Below, one piece after another: positions 35,416-47,906 of a DNA stretch of 47,906 nt. How positions within the stretch are numbered: the first letter of the stretch is position 1; every line of letters begins with the position of its first letter. The notes below the pieces were generated by a model. The model was not told the origin of the DNA. It did not search any database and saw only the letters and a program-made list of their open reading frames with translations. A program made the position numbers and the translations under genes. The DNA comes from Spirochaetales bacterium (GTDB lineage: Bacteria > Spirochaetota > Spirochaetia > SZUA-6 > JAFGRV01), in the NCBI GenBank assembly GCA_016930085.1, contig JAFGHO010000082.1:1-47906 (forward strand), in the 5' to 3' direction.

Positions 35416-36255
35416 CTACCTGCCCCACTTTTCCACCGCCTGGTTTCCGAGTGCCTGCTCGCCCGCAGAGTTTGCATGGCAACCGTCCGCTACCTCTGAG
35501 TTACGAAGCGTGAAGGTCCCGGAGTATATCACGTTCAGCGACGAATCATTACCCGCTTGCTGCGCGAGTCTGTCGGTCGACGGAGGTCCGTCCGCCCCTC
35601 CCGCCAGCGTACACACGTTGCCCTCCGGGTAAAGCGGCTGACCGGTGATGTAGATCGTCGCGCCGGGTGCCGCATGCTGCTTCGCGGCTGCGATCATCTG
35701 TTTCACTTCATCGTATGTCGCTCCCTGCGGGAAAATGCACACCTGCACCCACACCGCGGACGGCTTTCCGTATCTGGCCGACTGCTGGTCGAACAACTGC
35801 CATGAACTGGAATTGGGGTCAGTCCAGTTCTGGACGACCATACCTCCCGTCCCGTAACCACCCCACATACGCTGGCCGCCGACCGCACGATACCCGTTCG
35901 CGACATTCTCGGCCATCGAACATCCGCAGTAGCCCATCGTGTTAGGCCCACCGCTTGCGGGCGGCGATGTGGGATCCGGTGTCGATGTCGACGGGCATGA
36001 CAGCTGGGATACCAGCCCTACCGAGTACTGTGCGACACGAAGGGCATCGACGATATTTATATCGGCGTCCCCGTTGACATCCGCAACCGAGGAATCGAAA
36101 TTCGCCGGATACAGGCCCACTGCGTACTGGGCGATGAGGAGTGCATCAACAATGTCGGCCTCCCCGTTTGCATTGACATCACCGCATGACGCCGCAAACG
36201 CCTGACCCAGGCTGAATGCGATCAGAATTACTACGATAAACACCTTTTTTCTCAT
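35416..36255 (-). CDS. Secreted dockerin protein with SGNH-hydrolase-like C-terminal part
   Basis: 279 aa from the ATG at 36255, chosen for AAAGGAG 8 bp upstream and a clean signal peptide (MRKKVFIVVILIAFSLGQ, cleaved near AFA-A). Residues about 25-85 are a dockerin type I domain with two calcium-loop units: CGDVNANGEADIVDALLIA and DVNGDADINIVDALRVA. A Pro/Ser/Thr linker follows (TSTPDPTSPPASGG). The remaining 165 residues resemble an SGNH/GDSL-type fold: a W/Y-rich middle, then VWVQVCIFPQG, a helix TYDEVKQMIAAAKQH, TIYITGQPLYP, and the terminal DGCHANSAGEQALG, which looks like block V (DxxH). The usual GDS block is not recognisable, so catalysis is uncertain. The dockerin should bind a cohesin; a cohesin-like lipoprotein is at 22172-22843. 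Confidence 0.88.
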   Translation of the reverse strand: MRKKVFIVVILIAFSLGQAFAASCGDVNANGEADIVDALLIAQYAVGLYPANFDSSVADVNGDADINIVDALRVAQYSVGLVSQLSCPSTSTPDPTSPPASGGPNTMGYCGCSMAENVANGYRAVGGQRMWGGYGTGGMVVQNWTDPNSSSWQLFDQQSARYGKPSAVWVQVCIFPQGATYDEVKQMIAAAKQHAAPGATIYITGQPLYPEGNVCTLAGGADGPPSTDRLAQQAGNDSSLNVIYSGTFTLRNSEVADGCHANSAGEQALGNQAVEKWGR

Positions 36256-36610
36256 TTTTGAAACTCCTTTTTTATAAAATTCATCCGAAGCGTCCTCACT
36301 CCGGTGTATTAAATGCATCTACAATAGTACGTTTCATTGTACCCGGTTCTCCGTAACGGTAAACCTTCGGTTTGCCGTAAAAATACCGAAGGCGGATCGA
36401 TCGCGACAACACCCTTTTTGATTTGAAATATGGCTGGATATTTCTTTCAAAGCGAGTCAATGGCACACCGGGTTCACCGGGTATTGATTTCAGGTACGAT
36501 TGTATGTTATTATGACATCAGAATACTGAAAAGGCGTGATGTATTGCGGTAACGACAACTCAATAGCGTACAAATATATTCGCATGCATATATAATGCGG
36601 CAGAAACAAT
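36256..36610. other. Divergent regulatory region with an inverted repeat
   Basis: It separates the dockerin gene (minus) from the hybrid kinase (plus). It contains an 8-bp inverted repeat CCTTCGGT (36364-36371) / ACCGAAGG (36385-36392). A possible minus-strand promoter is TTTACC-N16-TACAAT around 36335-36362. A plus-strand promoter is at 36484-36513. A direct repeat CACCGGGT occurs twice near 36465-36482. A second TATAAT at 36591-36596 precedes the kinase start. Confidence 0.45.
36484..36513 (+). promoter_or_regulatory. Candidate promoter for the hybrid kinase
   Basis: TTGATT (36484-36489), an 18-bp spacer, TATTAT (36508-36513). The predicted start is near 36520, about 90 nt before the ATG at 36611. 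Confidence 0.5.
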
Positions 36611-39529
36611 ATGGATGATTCGATGTCAAAAAAAACCCGGCCTCGTTTCGGTGTTCTCACCGACTGGTTTCAGGGATATTATCAGTCCGAACTTATATCA
36701 GGAATCGAACACGAGGCAAAACGTAATAATATCGATGTTTTTTATTTCGTGGGCCGCTCGATCAATTCACCCTACCCCCATGAAGAGGGTTTTAATGTCG
36801 TCTACGATATGGCACTCGACGCCTCACTCGACGGCCTCGCGATACTTCCGATGATCACCAACTTCAGTACGGACAAGCAGGTGTCGGAATTCGTTTCCCG
36901 GTACGCGTCCCTTCCTCTCGTCACCATCGGCTTTACATCAACTCACGGCAACGCGATACTCACGAACAATGTGAACGGATTTCACTCACTCGTCCGGCAC
37001 CTCACCGACGATCACGGCTACAGGAAACTCGCGTTCGTAAACGGTCCCGGGAAAAGCCCCGATGCAATCGAACGATCGGGAATTTATACGTCCGTGTTGC
37101 GATCCGGGGGAATACCGCTTGATTCCTCTCTTATAACAAGCGGCAACTTTTCAACCCCCTCCGGCAGAGAGGCGGTACGGACCTACATTGATGAACGAGG
37201 CCTCATACCGGGACGGGACATGGATGTGATCGTCTGCGCGAACGACCAGATGGCATGGGGCGTTTTGAACGAACTCGAAGACCGCGGCTTCAATGTACCC
37301 CGTGATGTCGCGGTTACCGGATTCGACGACATCCTTTACTCAATTTTTGAAGAACCGACAATCACTACCGTGAACCCGCATGTTTTTGAAATCGGTAAAA
37401 CCGCAGTATCACTTCTCCAATCATACGACCCCGCAAGAAAGGACACGGTCTTCAACGCCGAACTCGTTATTCGCGACTCATGCGGCTGTGGCGGCGGTCG
37501 AACAAAATACAAAGGGGGTACTATCGCCCCCCGCCCGGAAACCCCTGCAAGAAAGCCGGATACCGAAAAACCCATAGCACCTGAAAACATCATCGGGCTG
37601 ACTGGACAGGGCAGGGAGATGGTCATGCGTTTTGTAAAAACAATCTTCATTCTGGACGATCTCAAACGTTTGAAAAACACGAGTGAGCTGGACGAGTGGC
37701 TGGTCCGTATTCTGCCTGATTTTAAAATAAAAAGCGCCTTTCTCTTTCTCTACACGGATTTGCCCGCCCCCTCGGATTGCGTCAAACTCATCTCGGGCTA
37801 CGGCAGGAAGCACCGTGACAAGGACGTAAGGGAGAAAACCCTTGTCTTACAATCGGTGTTCGGCGATATACTTGTTCACGACGAGAGACGATCCTCCTGC
37901 ATCCTCCCGCTGTTCTATGAAGACGAGCAGTACGGGTTTATCGCGGTTGACGTCAACAACTATGCGTCGCTTGTATACGACACATTGAACGGGCCGATCG
38001 GCAGTACGATAAAGAACATGCGTCTCATGGTAGAGGTGAAAAGCGTGAATGAAAAGCTGGAAGAGACGAACCGCATGCTTTACAAGGCAAACGAACAAAA
38101 AACCCAGTTTTTCATCAATGTCGCACATGAGATGAAAACACCGCTTACGCTGATCCAGAATTACCTCGAACGCATTCTGGCACGCAGCAACCCCGATCCG
38201 GAACTGCATATCGTCAAACAGAACATCGATATCCTGATCGAAAATATGGTTAATTTTCTCGATGCGGAACGGCTCGAAAAAGGGAGAATGTCGTTTTCAC
38301 ATGATTCATTCGTCGATCTCTGTGAATCCGTACGGGAAAAGTGCATACTGTTCAGGTCCATTGCCGCAAAAAAAGACATTACCATAGAACTCAACACCAT
38401 GAATAATATCGTCGTCAAAATCGACCCGTGGGCACTCGACCGGGTATTGAATAATTTGATTGAAAACGCGATCAAATATACGCCGCCGGGCGGGAGGGTC
38501 GCGGTAGAAGTGGGAAGAAAAGCCGGCAAGGCGGTATTCCGCGTAAGCGATAACGGGCCCGGGCTTTCCAAAGAGACAATCGAACACCTATTCGAACCGT
38601 ATTACCAGCTTTCGAGGAAACGGTCGAGTAAACAGGGCATCGGCGTTGGATTGTCGATCGTGAAGAAAATCCTTGACGATCTTGGTGCATCGATCGTCGT
38701 TGCCAAAAGCAAAAGCGGCGGTGCCAGTTTCACCGTTGATTTTATCGAGAGTAAAGAAACTCCCGGCGAAAAAGGTCTCTCCGATATTCCTCTTTCCGAA
38801 CCCGCGGCAGATATTATCTCCCCCGGGGATATCACGGAAGATGAGATATCAGGCGATAAACCCTCGATACTCATTGTCGACGACAATGTACAGATGCTTG
38901 ATTTCCTTAAAACGTCACTCAAAAAAACGTACGACATATTTCCGGCACTGAACGCACGTGAAGCGCTCGCCCGGCTCGAATCCATGAAACCTCCTGAGTT
39001 GATCATTTCGGATGTCATGATGGACGGTATGGACGGACATTCGTTCCTTGCCATGCTTGCCGGAAAAGATGAATATTGCGATATTCCCTTTATTTTTCTA
39101 TCCGCGGCAAACGAGCGGGACGAGGCGTTACACGGTCTGGAAGGCGGCGCGATCGATTATATCAGAAAACCGTTTTCCATTAAAGAACTCGAGAAAAAAA
39201 TAGAATCCATTATCGCGCTGCGGGACAACATTCAGAAACGGGAGATAATGAAAATACGTAAAGGGATCGACGGTATGCTTTCGAGGATTGGGGGATTGAA
39301 AAAACGGAAATCAGAAAAAACCTTCGATTCCCTCTGTATCAAATACGGTCTTTCTGCCCGCGAAAAGGAAATCGCATCCCTCCTTCTGGAAGGATTTCTC
39401 AACAAGGAGATCGCCTACCGGCTTCACGTGTCCAAACGGGCGGTCGAATACCACATCACCGGCATCTTCAAAAAAGTCGGCGTCACACGGAAATACGATC
39501 TCATCACGAAATTCAATGCGCAGCCCTGA
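36611..39529 (+). CDS. LacI-type-sensor / histidine kinase / receiver / LuxR hybrid regulator
   Basis: 972 aa in one chain, with no signal peptide or membrane helix, so it is cytoplasmic. Residues about 10-295 form a LacI/PBP1-like ligand-binding domain without the LacI helix-turn-helix (FGVLTDWFQGYYQSELISGI, VICANDQMAWGVLNELEDRG, DVAVTGFDDI) and end in DSCGCGGG. A linker/GAF-like region follows (340-480). The kinase core has the H-box NVAHEMKTPL (H about 506), N-box NNLIENAIKYTPPGG, G1 DNGPGLS, and G2 GIGVGLSIVKK. The receiver spans about 752-870 (acceptor D801 in ISDVMMDG, Lys in YIRKPF). A LuxR-type HTH closes the protein (about 905-970: LSAREKEIASLLLEG, NKEIAYRLHVSKRAVEYHI). It probably senses an imported sugar and regulates transcription directly. 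The ATG lacks a good ribosome-binding site; an ATG at 36623 is possible. Confidence 0.93.
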   Translation: MDDSMSKKTRPRFGVLTDWFQGYYQSELISGIEHEAKRNNIDVFYFVGRSINSPYPHEEGFNVVYDMALDASLDGLAILPMITNFSTDKQVSEFVSRYASLPLVTIGFTSTHGNAILTNNVNGFHSLVRHLTDDHGYRKLAFVNGPGKSPDAIERSGIYTSVLRSGGIPLDSSLITSGNFSTPSGREAVRTYIDERGLIPGRDMDVIVCANDQMAWGVLNELEDRGFNVPRDVAVTGFDDILYSIFEEPTITTVNPHVFEIGKTAVSLLQSYDPARKDTVFNAELVIRDSCGCGGGRTKYKGGTIAPRPETPARKPDTEKPIAPENIIGLTGQGREMVMRFVKTIFILDDLKRLKNTSELDEWLVRILPDFKIKSAFLFLYTDLPAPSDCVKLISGYGRKHRDKDVREKTLVLQSVFGDILVHDERRSSCILPLFYEDEQYGFIAVDVNNYASLVYDTLNGPIGSTIKNMRLMVEVKSVNEKLEETNRMLYKANEQKTQFFINVAHEMKTPLTLIQNYLERILARSNPDPELHIVKQNIDILIENMVNFLDAERLEKGRMSFSHDSFVDLCESVREKCILFRSIAAKKDITIELNTMNNIVVKIDPWALDRVLNNLIENAIKYTPPGGRVAVEVGRKAGKAVFRVSDNGPGLSKETIEHLFEPYYQLSRKRSSKQGIGVGLSIVKKILDDLGASIVVAKSKSGGASFTVDFIESKETPGEKGLSDIPLSEPAADIISPGDITEDEISGDKPSILIVDDNVQMLDFLKTSLKKTYDIFPALNAREALARLESMKPPELIISDVMMDGMDGHSFLAMLAGKDEYCDIPFIFLSAANERDEALHGLEGGAIDYIRKPFSIKELEKKIESIIALRDNIQKREIMKIRKGIDGMLSRIGGLKKRKSEKTFDSLCIKYGLSAREKEIASLLLEGFLNKEIAYRLHVSKRAVEYHITGIFKKVGVTRKYDLITKFNAQP

Positions 39530-43127: not shown

Positions 43128-44516
43128 TTACCCGATCCCGTATTTCTTTATTTTTGCGATGAGACTTACCCTGGAAATACCCAGAATCCGGGCAGCTTTC
43201 GTCCTGTTCATGTTCGTATATCGAAGTACCCGTCCAATGTGGTCCCTTTCAAGCTCTTCCAGGGACTGCAAAGGGGAATCATACGAACCGGGGGCCGGAA
43301 CGGTGAAATCGTTAATCTCCGTTTTCGACTGTTCATGAAAATAGTGGGGGAGTGAACTCATGGACAATTCCTGTGATGATTCTATAATGATGGAACTGTT
43401 GATGATATTCATGAGTTCCCTGACATTGCCGGGAAAATCGTGGCGTTGCAACAGGGACAAGACCGGGGGAGATATCTTTGTGACATGTTTGTCGTATTTT
43501 TTATTGTACAGATTGAGAAAATGATACGACAGGAGTTCGATGTCTTCCTTTCTCTCCCGTAACGGAGGAAGGTAGATGGAATTGATATTGAGCCTGAAAA
43601 AAAGGTCTTTCCTGAAATTCCCTCTGTTGATTTCATCGAATAAATTCTTGTTCGTTGCGGCGATGATTCTCACATCCGCCTTTCTGTTAGTCGTGGAACC
43701 AAGCCGGTAGAACTCTTCCTCCTGCAGCACCCTGAGCAGTTTTACTTGAATTGGAAGCGAAAGTTCACCGATTTCATCAAGAAAGAGGGTCCCGCCGAAT
43801 GCTTCCTCGATGAATCCCTTTTTATCCTTAACCGCACCGCTGAACGCCCCCTTTTCATGGCCGAAAAATTCGGAAACGAACAATTCATTGGCAAAAGCAC
43901 CGGCATTCACCGCAACAAATTTTCGATCTTTTCGTTTGCTTATCCGGTGGATTGCCCGTGCGATCAGTTCTTTTCCCGTCCCGCTTTCTCCCCAGATAAG
44001 GATGCTGTTGTTCGTTGGGGCGAATTTCTCGACAAAGTGGAATATTTTCATCATTTCGTTGTTTCGAGTTATAATATCCCTGAAAATTTCCCGATGGGAG
44101 AGGCTTTCAAGTGAAAGCGGTACGAGAGATGATGTGCCCCCCCCGATGAGTTCGGAGCGGTCGATGGCAAGGCCCAGTGTGTGCATGATTTTTTCTTCAT
44201 CGATGGGCTTTAACAGGTAATCGAATGTTTTCAGTTTCATCGCCTTTATGGCAAGGTCGATATCCTCGACGCCGGTAAGGACGATCGTGATGATATCGAG
44301 ATTCCTGCTTCGAATGAACTCGAGGATATCGAGACCTGTGACATGCGGCATATCCATATCGAGCAGAAGAATATGAAACCCGTCGTTTTCGAGCATTGAG
44401 AAAGCTTTACGGGAATCCTGAAGGACATGGATATCGAATTTACCTGTTTGAAGAAGAAAAAGGTTCAGATAATTCAGGATAGCCTGATCGTCGTCGATAA
44501 CCAGAATTCTTTTCAT
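43128..44516 (-). CDS. NtrC-family sigma54-dependent response regulator
   Basis: 462 aa. The receiver spans residues 1-120 (acidic pair in VIDDDQ, acceptor D53 in LLLDMDMP, Lys in YLLKPID). The AAA+ domain spans about 140-380: Walker A GESGTGKE (176-183), sigma54-contact loop GAFSGA (223-228, Ser instead of the usual Thr), Walker B GGTLFLDE (241-248), and arginine-finger region LFFRLN. A Fis-type HTH closes the protein (about 425-462: MNRTKAARILGISRVSLIAKI). When phosphorylated it should activate sigma54 promoters. Its ATG overlaps the TGA of the upstream kinase gene by 4 bp, so the two form a cognate pair. The targets may include the upstream molybdoenzyme gene, whose promoter is off the window. 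Confidence 0.97.
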   Translation of the reverse strand: MKRILVIDDDQAILNYLNLFLLQTGKFDIHVLQDSRKAFSMLENDGFHILLLDMDMPHVTGLDILEFIRSRNLDIITIVLTGVEDIDLAIKAMKLKTFDYLLKPIDEEKIMHTLGLAIDRSELIGGGTSSLVPLSLESLSHREIFRDIITRNNEMMKIFHFVEKFAPTNNSILIWGESGTGKELIARAIHRISKRKDRKFVAVNAGAFANELFVSEFFGHEKGAFSGAVKDKKGFIEEAFGGTLFLDEIGELSLPIQVKLLRVLQEEEFYRLGSTTNRKADVRIIAATNKNLFDEINRGNFRKDLFFRLNINSIYLPPLRERKEDIELLSYHFLNLYNKKYDKHVTKISPPVLSLLQRHDFPGNVRELMNIINSSIIIESSQELSMSSLPHYFHEQSKTEINDFTVPAPGSYDSPLQSLEELERDHIGRVLRYTNMNRTKAARILGISRVSLIAKIKKYGIG

Positions 44517-46138
44517 GACGGCATGTCCCGTCCTGTGGGGATAAGAATGGTAAAGGCCGTTCCCTTATGCAATGAACTTTCCACCTCGATGGTTCCTCTG
44601 TGTTCCTTTATAATACCATAGCTGATTGAAAGACCCAACCCCGTTCCCCCGCTTGAACGCTTTGTCGTATAAAAAGGATCAAAGATGTACTTTTTATTTT
44701 TATCATCGATACCGATACCATTATCGGTAATTCTGACAAAAACCCGGCCGGTTTTCCCGTTCAAACCGGTTTCGATGGTGATGAGCCCGCCTTTCCCTTC
44801 AATCGCCTGTGACGCATTGATAAGCATATTCACCATTACCTGCTCGAGTTTCTGGATGTTCCCCTTGAAAACGGGAATATCTTCTTTCAGGTCCAGACCG
44901 ATTTTTGCATGACGCCTGATCTGATTTTCGACAAGGTGCAGACTGCTTCTAACGATTGTGTTGATATTTATATCATCTTCCAGAATACCTTCGTTTTTTC
45001 GCGCAAAATTCCTCAGTCCATCGACGATATTCTTGATTCGATCCACGCCCTGAATCATATCGTCGAGAAGAACGGGAATATGTTCCCTGAACGTCCGATA
45101 ATCAAGCCGTGCGATTTTCATGTCCCTGTGCTGTTTAACGTATTCATCGGTTATCGGCAATATATCTGCGATCGACTCACGGATTATGGCAAGGTTTCCT
45201 TTAATATAAGTGTTCGGATTATTGATTTCATGTGCAATTCCGGCAACGAGCTTTCCCAGTGAAGCGAGTTTATAGGACTGGACGAGATGCCTTTCGATCT
45301 GTTTTTCCTTGGTGATATCGCTGCATTTTTCCAGCACCCTCACCACATTTCCCTGCCGGTTGATAATCGGGTAGGACTTGAGGAGGTAGGTCTTTTTGTC
45401 GATTTTCACTTCCCTTGCCAGGCTATCCTTTGATGTAAAGACCAAACGCGCGGGGCAAAAATCACAAACGGCCTTGTTATTGAATATTTTTTCGTAACAC
45501 CGGGTATTGCCCGCTATAGAGGCTTTGTTCGACATGACGACGTTGAAATCAGGATCGATGACGACAATAATATCGGTAATCGCATCGAAAAACGTCTTGA
45601 GCTTTTTTTTACTGCGCTCGAGGGCTTCGGTTAATTCCTTGAGCGCCTTGTTTTTTCTGTGAGATTCTTCCACTTCCTTCGTTTTTTCACGCACGAGCAC
45701 TTCGAGTTTCATTACATTTCTTTCGCGTTCTTCCTTCAGGTCATATTTTTCGATGGCCAGTGCAATTTTGTTCGATATTTCCTTGATCAGGTTTTTTTCC
45801 TCTTCGAGAAATGCCGCTTTTTTCGTATACCGGATGCGTATTTCTCCCCGCGGCTTTCCGTCGGCGACTATCGGTTGTTCGATACAATTGTCGTACTTTC
45901 CGCACTCCCCCGGTTGTTTACCGTAAAAAGAGTCGTCGATTCGTATGGTAACCTCGGTAATGTCGGGAAACTGGAACCCGTCGATGATATGGCGGACGGA
46001 CCCGGAAATCGCCTCATGTATATCTTTGGCGGATTCCATTTCGGAGCTTATCGCATAAAGACACTGGAGTTCTTTTACCCGTTCCCGCAGCGCGAGTTCG
46101 ATATTTTTTTTATCACGTTCACCGCTTTTCTCTTTCAT
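44513..46138 (-). CDS. GAF/PAS sensor histidine kinase
   Basis: 541 aa, cytoplasmic, with no membrane helix. A GAF-like domain covers residues about 20-140, with C-x6-C near 78-85 (CGKYDNC). A coiled coil follows (about 145-190), then a PAS domain (about 190-290) with a cysteine-rich insert CYEKIFNNKAVCDFCPARL. The kinase core has the H-box GIAHEINNPNTYIKGN (H about 303), N-box QVMVNMLINASQAI, G1 ITDNGIGID, F-box FDPFYTTKR, and G2 GGTGLGLSISYGIIKEH. The cysteines and the molybdoenzyme neighbour suggest redox or metabolite sensing, though such PAS cysteine clusters are common. It starts 26 bp after the molybdoenzyme stop with AAGGGA upstream and is coupled to the NtrC-type regulator downstream. 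Confidence 0.95.
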   Translation of the reverse strand: MKEKSGERDKKNIELALRERVKELQCLYAISSEMESAKDIHEAISGSVRHIIDGFQFPDITEVTIRIDDSFYGKQPGECGKYDNCIEQPIVADGKPRGEIRIRYTKKAAFLEEEKNLIKEISNKIALAIEKYDLKEERERNVMKLEVLVREKTKEVEESHRKNKALKELTEALERSKKKLKTFFDAITDIIVVIDPDFNVVMSNKASIAGNTRCYEKIFNNKAVCDFCPARLVFTSKDSLAREVKIDKKTYLLKSYPIINRQGNVVRVLEKCSDITKEKQIERHLVQSYKLASLGKLVAGIAHEINNPNTYIKGNLAIIRESIADILPITDEYVKQHRDMKIARLDYRTFREHIPVLLDDMIQGVDRIKNIVDGLRNFARKNEGILEDDININTIVRSSLHLVENQIRRHAKIGLDLKEDIPVFKGNIQKLEQVMVNMLINASQAIEGKGGLITIETGLNGKTGRVFVRITDNGIGIDDKNKKYIFDPFYTTKRSSGGTGLGLSISYGIIKEHRGTIEVESSLHKGTAFTILIPTGRDMPS

Positions 46139-46164: not shown

Positions 46165-47883
46165 TTATTGCAGCGGAAGTACTCTTTTTTTTATTGTATC
46201 CCTAAAATAGTTTTCTGAAAAGAGAACGGAAGGTTTTTCCGGTCTCAATGTCCTGAAATCGGTATCGAAAACCGAGAATCGAAGCCGTTTGGCCGATGTC
46301 GTCGATTCATGAAGTGCAAGATGAGATACCCATGACTCGCCGGGTGTACAATTCCGATAAAACCTGTTGACCTCGCTTATTTCTTCACAGATCCCGGCCG
46401 CATTCTCTTCATTGAAACCGGGAATAAATCTGCGGGCAAGGCCGCAGATCACTGCAATGCCGTTTTCCGGTTCCATGCCGTCAACGACGGCATTTCCCCT
46501 GCGGATGGTCAGATCGCAGTGTGTATATGTCCCGTTTTTTTCAAGAGGAGACGATCCCGGCAGTATGATATCCGCCTTTTTCGCCGTCTCTGTGAGAAAC
46601 AAATCACTGACCAGGAGAAAGTCTAGTCCGCCAAAATACTGCCTGTTTTCGGTGTGCCATAACGGGTCCTCTCCGAAAACAAGGGCGGCCTTGATCGTTC
46701 CCGATTTCATGTCCGAAAGGATATCTACCGGCCTGAAAATTCCCTCAAGATCGGTATTCCATCTTTGTGCGATCCGCTTGATATCGGCTTCTTCATGGTA
46801 TGTCACGAAACCGGGAAGGTAACGCGGATCGACCCCCATATCGAGAAGGCCTTGTGAGTTCGTGTATTCCCGCAGGAGAATCAGCCCGTTGTCCCGATGA
46901 CGGGGCCACCCTTTCAGCAGGAGGAGGTTCCCGATCGCCGCGAGATCATACGACGACTTGTCGACCCATGCATCGATATTATAGACGAACAATATTTTTT
47001 TTGCCGGATCGGCGAGAAGCCCGGTCAGCTTCGTGAAGGTTTCGCGCGATATTCCGGTAGCAGCGTATAGTTCCTCCTCGGGAAACGCTTCGACCATCGA
47101 CCTGAAGTTTTTAAACCCTTCGATATCAGAGGGGTTTTCCTTTGCGTTTGCGCCATTTTCCAGAATTTTGCGGCAGATGCCGTTTAACAGGGCGGTATTC
47201 GAACCACGTTTCGTATGGACCCACAGATCGGCGAGCTTTGCAAGGCGTGATTCGGAGGAGTCCACGGCAATGAAAGCCGCCCCGTGTTTCATCGCCTTCC
47301 TGATCTGTAATTCCAGAACCACTGTTTCATCACCGCGTCCCGGATTTATTGTCACGATAACATCCGCCCGTTTCATATCGTCGATCGTCGCCGTCGAACA
47401 GGTAATCCCGGCACCCGCATCGAGGCCGTCCAGACCACGGCCGTATAACAGGTGGGAGAGACTCGCCACCGCGTTTGTCCCGAGTCCCGTCCGCGCGAAT
47501 TTCTGTAAAAGGTAGAGTTCCTCGTTCGACAACACAGGTGAACAAAAAACAGCGACCGCGCCGGGTCCATGGGTATCGATGATCGCCTTGAGTCTTTTTT
47601 CGGTGATGTCAAAGGATTCATCAAAGCCCGCCGGCTTGTGCGTGTTCTTCTCAAGTATCATCGGTCCGGCGATACGGTCATTTTCAGTCAGGTAGCGGTG
47701 TCCGAACCGTCCTTTCATACAGAGGTAGCCCTCATTGGAAGAAACCGTCCCGCCTCCGGATATACCTGCGCAGTGAAGATGCTTGTTTGAAACATAACAG
47801 GTCACACCGTCTATTTTCTTATAATTTACCCTGCAGCCGAGTGAACAAAAATGACAGATCGATTCGTGATTGGTCCGCGCCAT
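46165..47883 (-). CDS. Short molybdopterin oxidoreductase (formate-dehydrogenase/NuoG-like)
   Basis: 572 aa. The N-terminus binds one 4Fe-4S cluster (C10, C13, C17, C55; CHFCSLGC and LCMKGR). Molybdopterin-binding domains II and III follow: YLTENDRIAGPM, FDITEKRLKAIIDTHGPGAV, DVIVTINPGRGDETV, ALVFGEDPLWHTEN, and ADIILPGSSPLEKNGTYTHC. At the position that carries Cys or selenocysteine in formate dehydrogenases (before His in R-V-[CU]-H) it reads SLSH, giving Ser143. The chain ends soon after LRFSVFDTDF, where the C-terminal dinucleotide-binding domain IV (about 110-120 aa in relatives) should begin. The stop is 26 bp from the next gene, so no frameshifted remainder fits. Partners may lie upstream, outside the window. 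It is followed by the kinase/NtrC-type pair on the same strand. Confidence 0.9.
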   Translation of the reverse strand: MARTNHESICHFCSLGCRVNYKKIDGVTCYVSNKHLHCAGISGGGTVSSNEGYLCMKGRFGHRYLTENDRIAGPMILEKNTHKPAGFDESFDITEKRLKAIIDTHGPGAVAVFCSPVLSNEELYLLQKFARTGLGTNAVASLSHLLYGRGLDGLDAGAGITCSTATIDDMKRADVIVTINPGRGDETVVLELQIRKAMKHGAAFIAVDSSESRLAKLADLWVHTKRGSNTALLNGICRKILENGANAKENPSDIEGFKNFRSMVEAFPEEELYAATGISRETFTKLTGLLADPAKKILFVYNIDAWVDKSSYDLAAIGNLLLLKGWPRHRDNGLILLREYTNSQGLLDMGVDPRYLPGFVTYHEEADIKRIAQRWNTDLEGIFRPVDILSDMKSGTIKAALVFGEDPLWHTENRQYFGGLDFLLVSDLFLTETAKKADIILPGSSPLEKNGTYTHCDLTIRRGNAVVDGMEPENGIAVICGLARRFIPGFNEENAAGICEEISEVNRFYRNCTPGESWVSHLALHESTTSAKRLRFSVFDTDFRTLRPEKPSVLFSENYFRDTIKKRVLPLQ

Positions 47884-47906
47884 GGTGCCGGGTATGTGAG
47901 AGGGAA

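Follow-up and report, generated by a model that had tools for sequence, protein, structure and literature searches.

The minus-strand open reading frame at positions 46165-47883 of the 47,906-nucleotide stretch of Spirochaetales DNA analysed here (the window, which corresponds to the entire contig C82) can be interpreted with high confidence as the tail of a contig-split stnC gene of an Stn/Nfn-Bfu transhydrogenase, with a dead FdhF-like tail that most likely serves complex assembly. What appeared to be a short Ser-ligated molybdenum protein is, in this interpretation, a piece of a known bifurcating transhydrogenase truncated by the end of the contig, and the window frame should therefore not be used to seed a new enzyme family. 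The window genome would also add a member from Spirochaetota to the Stn family; in our search of the literature (open-access papers), we found no StnABC from a Spirochaete. The positions of the main features are listed in Table 1.

Table 1. Positions of the stnC tail, its landmarks and the adjoining signalling genes (window coordinates unless a locus is given).
Feature	Position	Strand	Basis or remark
C-terminal 579 codons of stnC-type gene, FdhF-like domain	46165..47904	-	5' part on contig C20, ends at C20:57121
FdhF-type [4Fe-4S] cysteines C10, C13, C17, C55 (572-aa ORF numbering)	47719..47856	-	Alignment, 17/17 rows
SLSH, residues 141-144, 2-5 residues upstream of the ligand column	47452..47463	-	phmmer, MAFFT, FDH-only HMM
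Leu146-Tyr147, equivalents of the FDH Cys/Sec-His pair	47443..47448	-	phmmer, MAFFT, FDH-only HMM
Stub of about 42 residues matching the FDH domain IV start	46168..46293	-	Alignments, model
Histidine kinase (HisKA, HATPase_c), C-x(n)-CxxC in a PAS-like stretch, 26 bp after stnC	44513..46138	-	Pfam
NtrC-type response regulator (REC, sigma-54 activator, Fis HTH), overlaps kinase end	43128..44516	-	Pfam
Receiver domain and two AsnC_trans_reg domains, just before stnA	L050:7786-8787 (C20)		Pfam

A stnC gene split across two contig ends

The window frame encodes 572 amino acids and matches the Pfam profiles PF00384 (E 4.3e-28) and PF04879 (E 2.9e-6) far beyond chance, which agrees with its identification as a molybdopterin-oxidoreductase homologue in a preliminary description of this DNA. 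The same description took the frame for a complete, short protein, and this reading fell because of the contig edge. The frame is open up to the end of C82, 7 codons past the ATG at position 47883, for a total of 579 codons; this ATG is located 23 bp from the contig end and is internal to the gene, the rest of which is found at the end of contig C20 of the same genome.

The closest relative of the window domain (E 1.7e-160, 45% identity) is encoded by G002, a genome of the same family, in a single ORF of 1273 amino acids (L031:5004-8825) that carries the window-type domain last and is preceded by NuoE and NuoF genes. When the G002 protein was searched against the window's own genome, its residues 23-698 matched C20:55094-57121 (62%) and its residues 710-1272 matched the window (46%). 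Since C20 has 57121 bases, the first of these matches reaches its last base. C20 ends in frame with CISCGNCIDAC and the window frame starts with PSHIPGTMARTNHES, the G002 protein having CIDACPTGAITEQFDIRIPGTLPRKNH. The ends of C20 and C82 share no exact overlap of any length between 200 and 6 bases, so that the two parts are joined by homology. The assembly gap hides about 8-9 residues, and the full StnC protein of the window genome would have about 1264 amino acids.

The presence of an ATG and the intact ORF would also suit a stand-alone molybdopterin-like protein of 570 amino acids starting 23 bp from the contig end. We consider this highly improbable, given that the frame runs open to the contig end, that the N-terminal part lies at the end of C20 and that the nearest relative has an undivided gene. 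The locus survey argues in the same direction. A search of the genome contigs with the tail as a single-protein query gave no match, and an alignment-based scan retrieved 33 loci. Frames of 1209-1413 amino acids are present in 22 of these 33 named loci, and the others correspond to shorter types, contig-cut frames or a plain formate dehydrogenase (FDH). Uncut homologues some 570 amino acids long, a family of which would have spoken against the reading of the preliminary description by its own account, were not encountered among them; the 556-aa frame of L094 is cut by a contig end.

The part of StnC encoded by C20 contains the Pfam domains Fer2_4, Fer4_20, Pyr_redox_2 and Fer4_Nqo3. The domain set of StnC is thus present, with the [2Fe-2S] N-domain, the GltD-like FAD/NADPH domain and the dicluster ferredoxin on C20 and the FdhF-like tail in the window. 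Over its whole length, the C20 part can be aligned with residues 1-666 of Nfn-ABC from Caldicellulosiruptor saccharolyticus (9BOV/9BP5; 9bov chain A, E 1.8e-199, the best match) and of StnC from Sporomusa ovata (8oh5, E 1.4e-175). The lysine of its NPLKRY motif aligns to K170 of S. ovata StnC and R239 is also kept; Cys114 is replaced by Ile. In the consulted sections of PMC10482914, K170 is described as strictly conserved and C114 as Val or Ile in two homologues. C20 presents the gene order NuoE-NuoF-StnC, as in G002, with a StnA-type gene (NuoE-like, PF01257) and a StnB-type gene (NuoF-like, PF01512, PF10589 and two Fer4). The cysteines for the [2Fe-2S] cluster of StnA and for the two C-terminal [4Fe-4S] clusters of StnB are recognisable, and the gene spacing fits a common operon. 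Judged by its sequence features, the protein composed of the C20 and window parts qualifies as a Stn/Nfn-Bfu transhydrogenase. The tail alone does not reach the NuoG model TIGR01973 (110.9 bits for a cut-off of 470).

The system of the window genome shares with StnABC of S. ovata (8OH5/8OH9; PMC10482914, PMC7483475) the StnA/StnB/StnC set, the GltD-NuoG fusion, K170, R239, the Fe-S cysteines and the end point of the tail without a full domain IV. It differs by a StnC about 90 residues longer, the change of C114 to Ile, a tail closer to real FDHs by sequence, the REC-AsnC, kinase and regulator genes of its own operon, and its Spirochaetota host. The Nfn-Bfu type 1 of the Bfu family likewise shares the modified BfuA with a NADP(H)-FAD domain and the BfuBC core; the relevant passages of PMC9304861 list this type in Euryarchaeota, Firmicutes, Synergistetes and Bacteroidetes and do not name Spirochaetota.

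Fold and ligand position of the FdhF-like tail

The preliminary description of a normal 4Fe-4S site holds, the four FdhF-type cluster cysteines being invariant in the alignment. The absence of domain IV is also confirmed for the most part: the ORF ends near residue 603 of the 715 residues of E. coli FdhH, indicating that most of this domain is missing. The last 42 residues or so match what we take, with an assumed domain border, to be the beginning of FDH domain IV, and the protein then stops. A separate domain IV gene, which by the preliminary description's own account would also have spoken against its reading, was not found among the three genes around stnC that were typed with Pfam (stnB, the kinase and the regulator).

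An AlphaFold2 model of the window domain (mean pLDDT 79.5, pTM 0.86, 17 sequences) superimposes on residues 1-603 of FdhH (1aa6) with a Z of 35.2 over 551 residues (rmsd 3.0), on residues 683-1177 of 9bov with a top Z of 37.0 over 490 residues (rmsd 2.6), at a structural-alignment identity of only 25%, and on residues 683-1172 of 8oh5 with a Z of 34.7 over 480 residues (rmsd 2.4). The 9bov and 8oh5 alignments run to the C-termini of these chains. The solved StnC-type chains therefore end at the same point, and lacking this domain is an established character of the family rather than a peculiarity of the window protein. Several FDH chains tie with 9bov, with Z values within 1 of the top; the fold alone cannot separate StnC from FDH, and it is the gene context that does so. 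By sequence, the window domain is nearest to FDHs among solved structures (phmmer; FdhF of HDCR, E 1.7e-51; E. coli FdhH, E 5.9e-49), the matches to StnC-type structures being weaker (9bov, E 1.3e-32; 8oh5, E 3.6e-28). It shares with these FdhF-type enzymes the fold and the [4Fe-4S] site, but is part of a larger protein and lacks most of domain IV as well as the Cys/Sec-His pair.

The serine that had been placed at the metal-ligand position results from a register error. Comparisons with phmmer against solved FDHs, two MAFFT alignments and an FDH-only HMM are all ungapped in the ligand region (GTNAVASLSHLLYG vs GTNNVDHCARLCHA), and in all four the FDH Cys/Sec falls on Leu146 and the FDH His on Tyr147, upstream of which lies SLSH. 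Four Fdh-labelled rows (L010, L011, L015 and L016) with a wrong or broken frame were disregarded in the first MAFFT alignment; the second one included 30 of the 33 named loci (all except L075, L099 and L100) and 7 FDH rows. The ligand pair is replaced by Phe-Tyr in G002, Ser-Ser in G271 and Gly-Thr in G029. The Cys/Sec-His pair is present in all nine FDH-type rows, including the named loci L089 and L102, and Cys occurs in the ligand column in none of the 29 StnC-type rows, where L, F, S, G, E, I, V and D are found instead, the column being doubtful in the short or worn tails of L090-L095 and L098. These counts indicate that a SLSH-like stretch is frequent in the StnC-type family, yet is not the ligand, and that the true position is not conserved. 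Some distant StnC-type rows, such as L073, L079 and L101, do have Ser exactly in the ligand column, as could be imagined for a Ser-ligated Mo/W enzyme. With Leu in the window column, Tyr in place of the FDH His, a column so variable across the 29 rows and no Mo-cofactor genes found (see below), such an enzyme is hardly conceivable here.

Cofactor supply, distribution and putative function

MoaC, MoeA_N and Mob_synth_C were found in none of the four carriers of a better-preserved tail (the window genome G000, G002, G029 and G271), and all three are present in G001 and G004, genomes of the same family with FDH-type matches. Across our genome sets, 6 of 11 genomes gave a match to MoeA_N (PF03453) and 7 of 11 to Mob_synth_C (PF06463), a single one of the latter being above the curated cut-off; MoaC (PF01967) was found in 22 of 41 genomes and in 2 of 6 in a smaller set. 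The four carriers are draft genomes (96, 92, 90 and 63% complete; 95.95% for G000), so that the missing genes are not proof. PF00384 matches only once in G000, at the window locus. Since MoaA, MoaC and MoeA were not found and this is the sole PF00384 match, it is very probable that the window domain contains no molybdopterin. That a less worn FdhF-like tail persists where cofactor synthesis was not detected supports a structural view of the domain.

For the tree, a further ten StnC-type rows were set aside as short or close copies, and long branches are seen for three of the rows kept. The window and G002 form a pair in it (99/98). This pair joins the other Spirochaetota-Fermentibacterota type with a support (90/89) short of firm. 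L089:514-4707 (Vibrio gelatinilyticus), which groups with the true FDHs, encodes a 1397-aa GltD-like-FDH fusion with an intact Cys-His pair and a long tail resembling a full domain IV, possibly a NADP-linked formate dehydrogenase. At L100:6324-8399 (Spirochaetes MAG Dive96_bin4.94), a StnC-type frame of 691 amino acids adjoins StnA and StnB and stops right after the ferredoxin domain, without the FdhF-like tail. The window genome itself contains two more NuoE/NuoF-type sets, L051 (C88) and L052 (C124), whose accompanying proteins match ends of the N-terminal part of StnC; these sets are probably HydABC-like.

By analogy with S. ovata StnABC, NADPH would reduce the FAD of the GltD-like part of StnC, and the electrons would pass through the Fe-S clusters of StnC to the FMN of StnB; StnAB would then split them between NAD+ and ferredoxin, or the reverse run would make NADPH. 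From this analogy we infer the activity and direction of the complex in the window genome. Its FdhF-like tail has lost the Cys/Sec-His pair, most of domain IV and apparently the cofactor supply, while keeping the fold and one [4Fe-4S] site. According to parts of PMC10482914, residues 683-1172 of StnC, its FdhF domain, are catalytically inactive; active complex could not be purified after deletion of this domain, and tetramers failed to form when its cluster cysteines were changed. By comparison with that enzyme, the tail of the window protein most likely serves the assembly of the complex.

An active formate-oxidising subunit feeding the bifurcating core (Fdh-Bfu) could be considered instead, as FDHs are the nearest enzyme family by sequence, the tail retains the CxKG lysine and the Arg loop (LLREYTNSQGLLDMG), and Fdh-Bfu enzymes have been described (PMC9304861, in the portion consulted). 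The window protein, however, lacks the Cys/Sec, the His and a full domain IV in a genome where Mo-cofactor genes were not found, and S. ovata StnC shows no formate oxidation according to an excerpt of PMC7483475, which leaves this alternative almost no credit. Between the two proposals made in the preliminary description, the inactive, structural homologue thus stands, on the lost ligand pair, the cofactor genes not found and the inactivity of the solved StnC domain together with its need in assembly; the Ser-ligated one disappears with the register error.

Signalling genes around the stn operon

The next gene, 26 bp on as previously noted, encodes a histidine kinase. Its C-x(n)-CxxC stretch, located in a part that we read as PAS-like although Pfam gives no PAS match, is shared by the kinases of all seven loci aligned. 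With tblastn searches of the 33 named loci using the window and C20 proteins, we found a homologue of the REC-AsnC protein before stnA in at least 17, and the kinase-regulator pair after stnC in at least six (L073, L076, L080, L081, L085, about 3.8 kb further on, and L097), both counts being lower bounds since several loci are contig-cut. G002 (contig JAFGQK010000108.1, the same as L070, a Spirochaetales MAG) has the REC-AsnC gene, and the kinase pair was not found within 5 kb downstream of its stnC. These observations draw attention to signalling genes that travel together with the stn operon in several phyla.

The adjoining kinase and response regulator are also the sole hint of a sensory role for the FdhF-like domain. 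The dead domain could be kept as a reporter of redox state for the kinase, besides or instead of its part in assembly, as suggested by the recurrence of the gene pair in the window and in six named loci from several phyla and by the cysteine stretch common to the kinases. This appears improbable, since the closest relative, G002, has none over 5 kb downstream of stnC and the tail is present in many loci where such a kinase was not found. More speculatively, and with a chance that we rate as small, the complex could inform a histidine kinase and sigma-54 regulator dedicated to it of the balance between NADPH, NADH and ferredoxin, perhaps by way of the REC-AsnC protein or of its dead FdhF-like domain. 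Such a self-regulated Stn branch would span Spirochaetota, Fermentibacterota, Krumholzibacteriota and Verrucomicrobiota; no link between StnABC and a histidine kinase was found in our search of open-access papers.

Two other genes of the window can be mentioned, both read from their translations. Positions 36611-39529 encode a 972-aa hybrid protein that seems to combine a LacI-type binding domain, a histidine kinase, a receiver and a LuxR-type HTH, and positions 35416-36318 encode a secreted-looking protein of 300 amino acids that has a C-terminal domain in addition to dockerin-like repeats (GDVNANGEADIVDALLIAQYAVGL).
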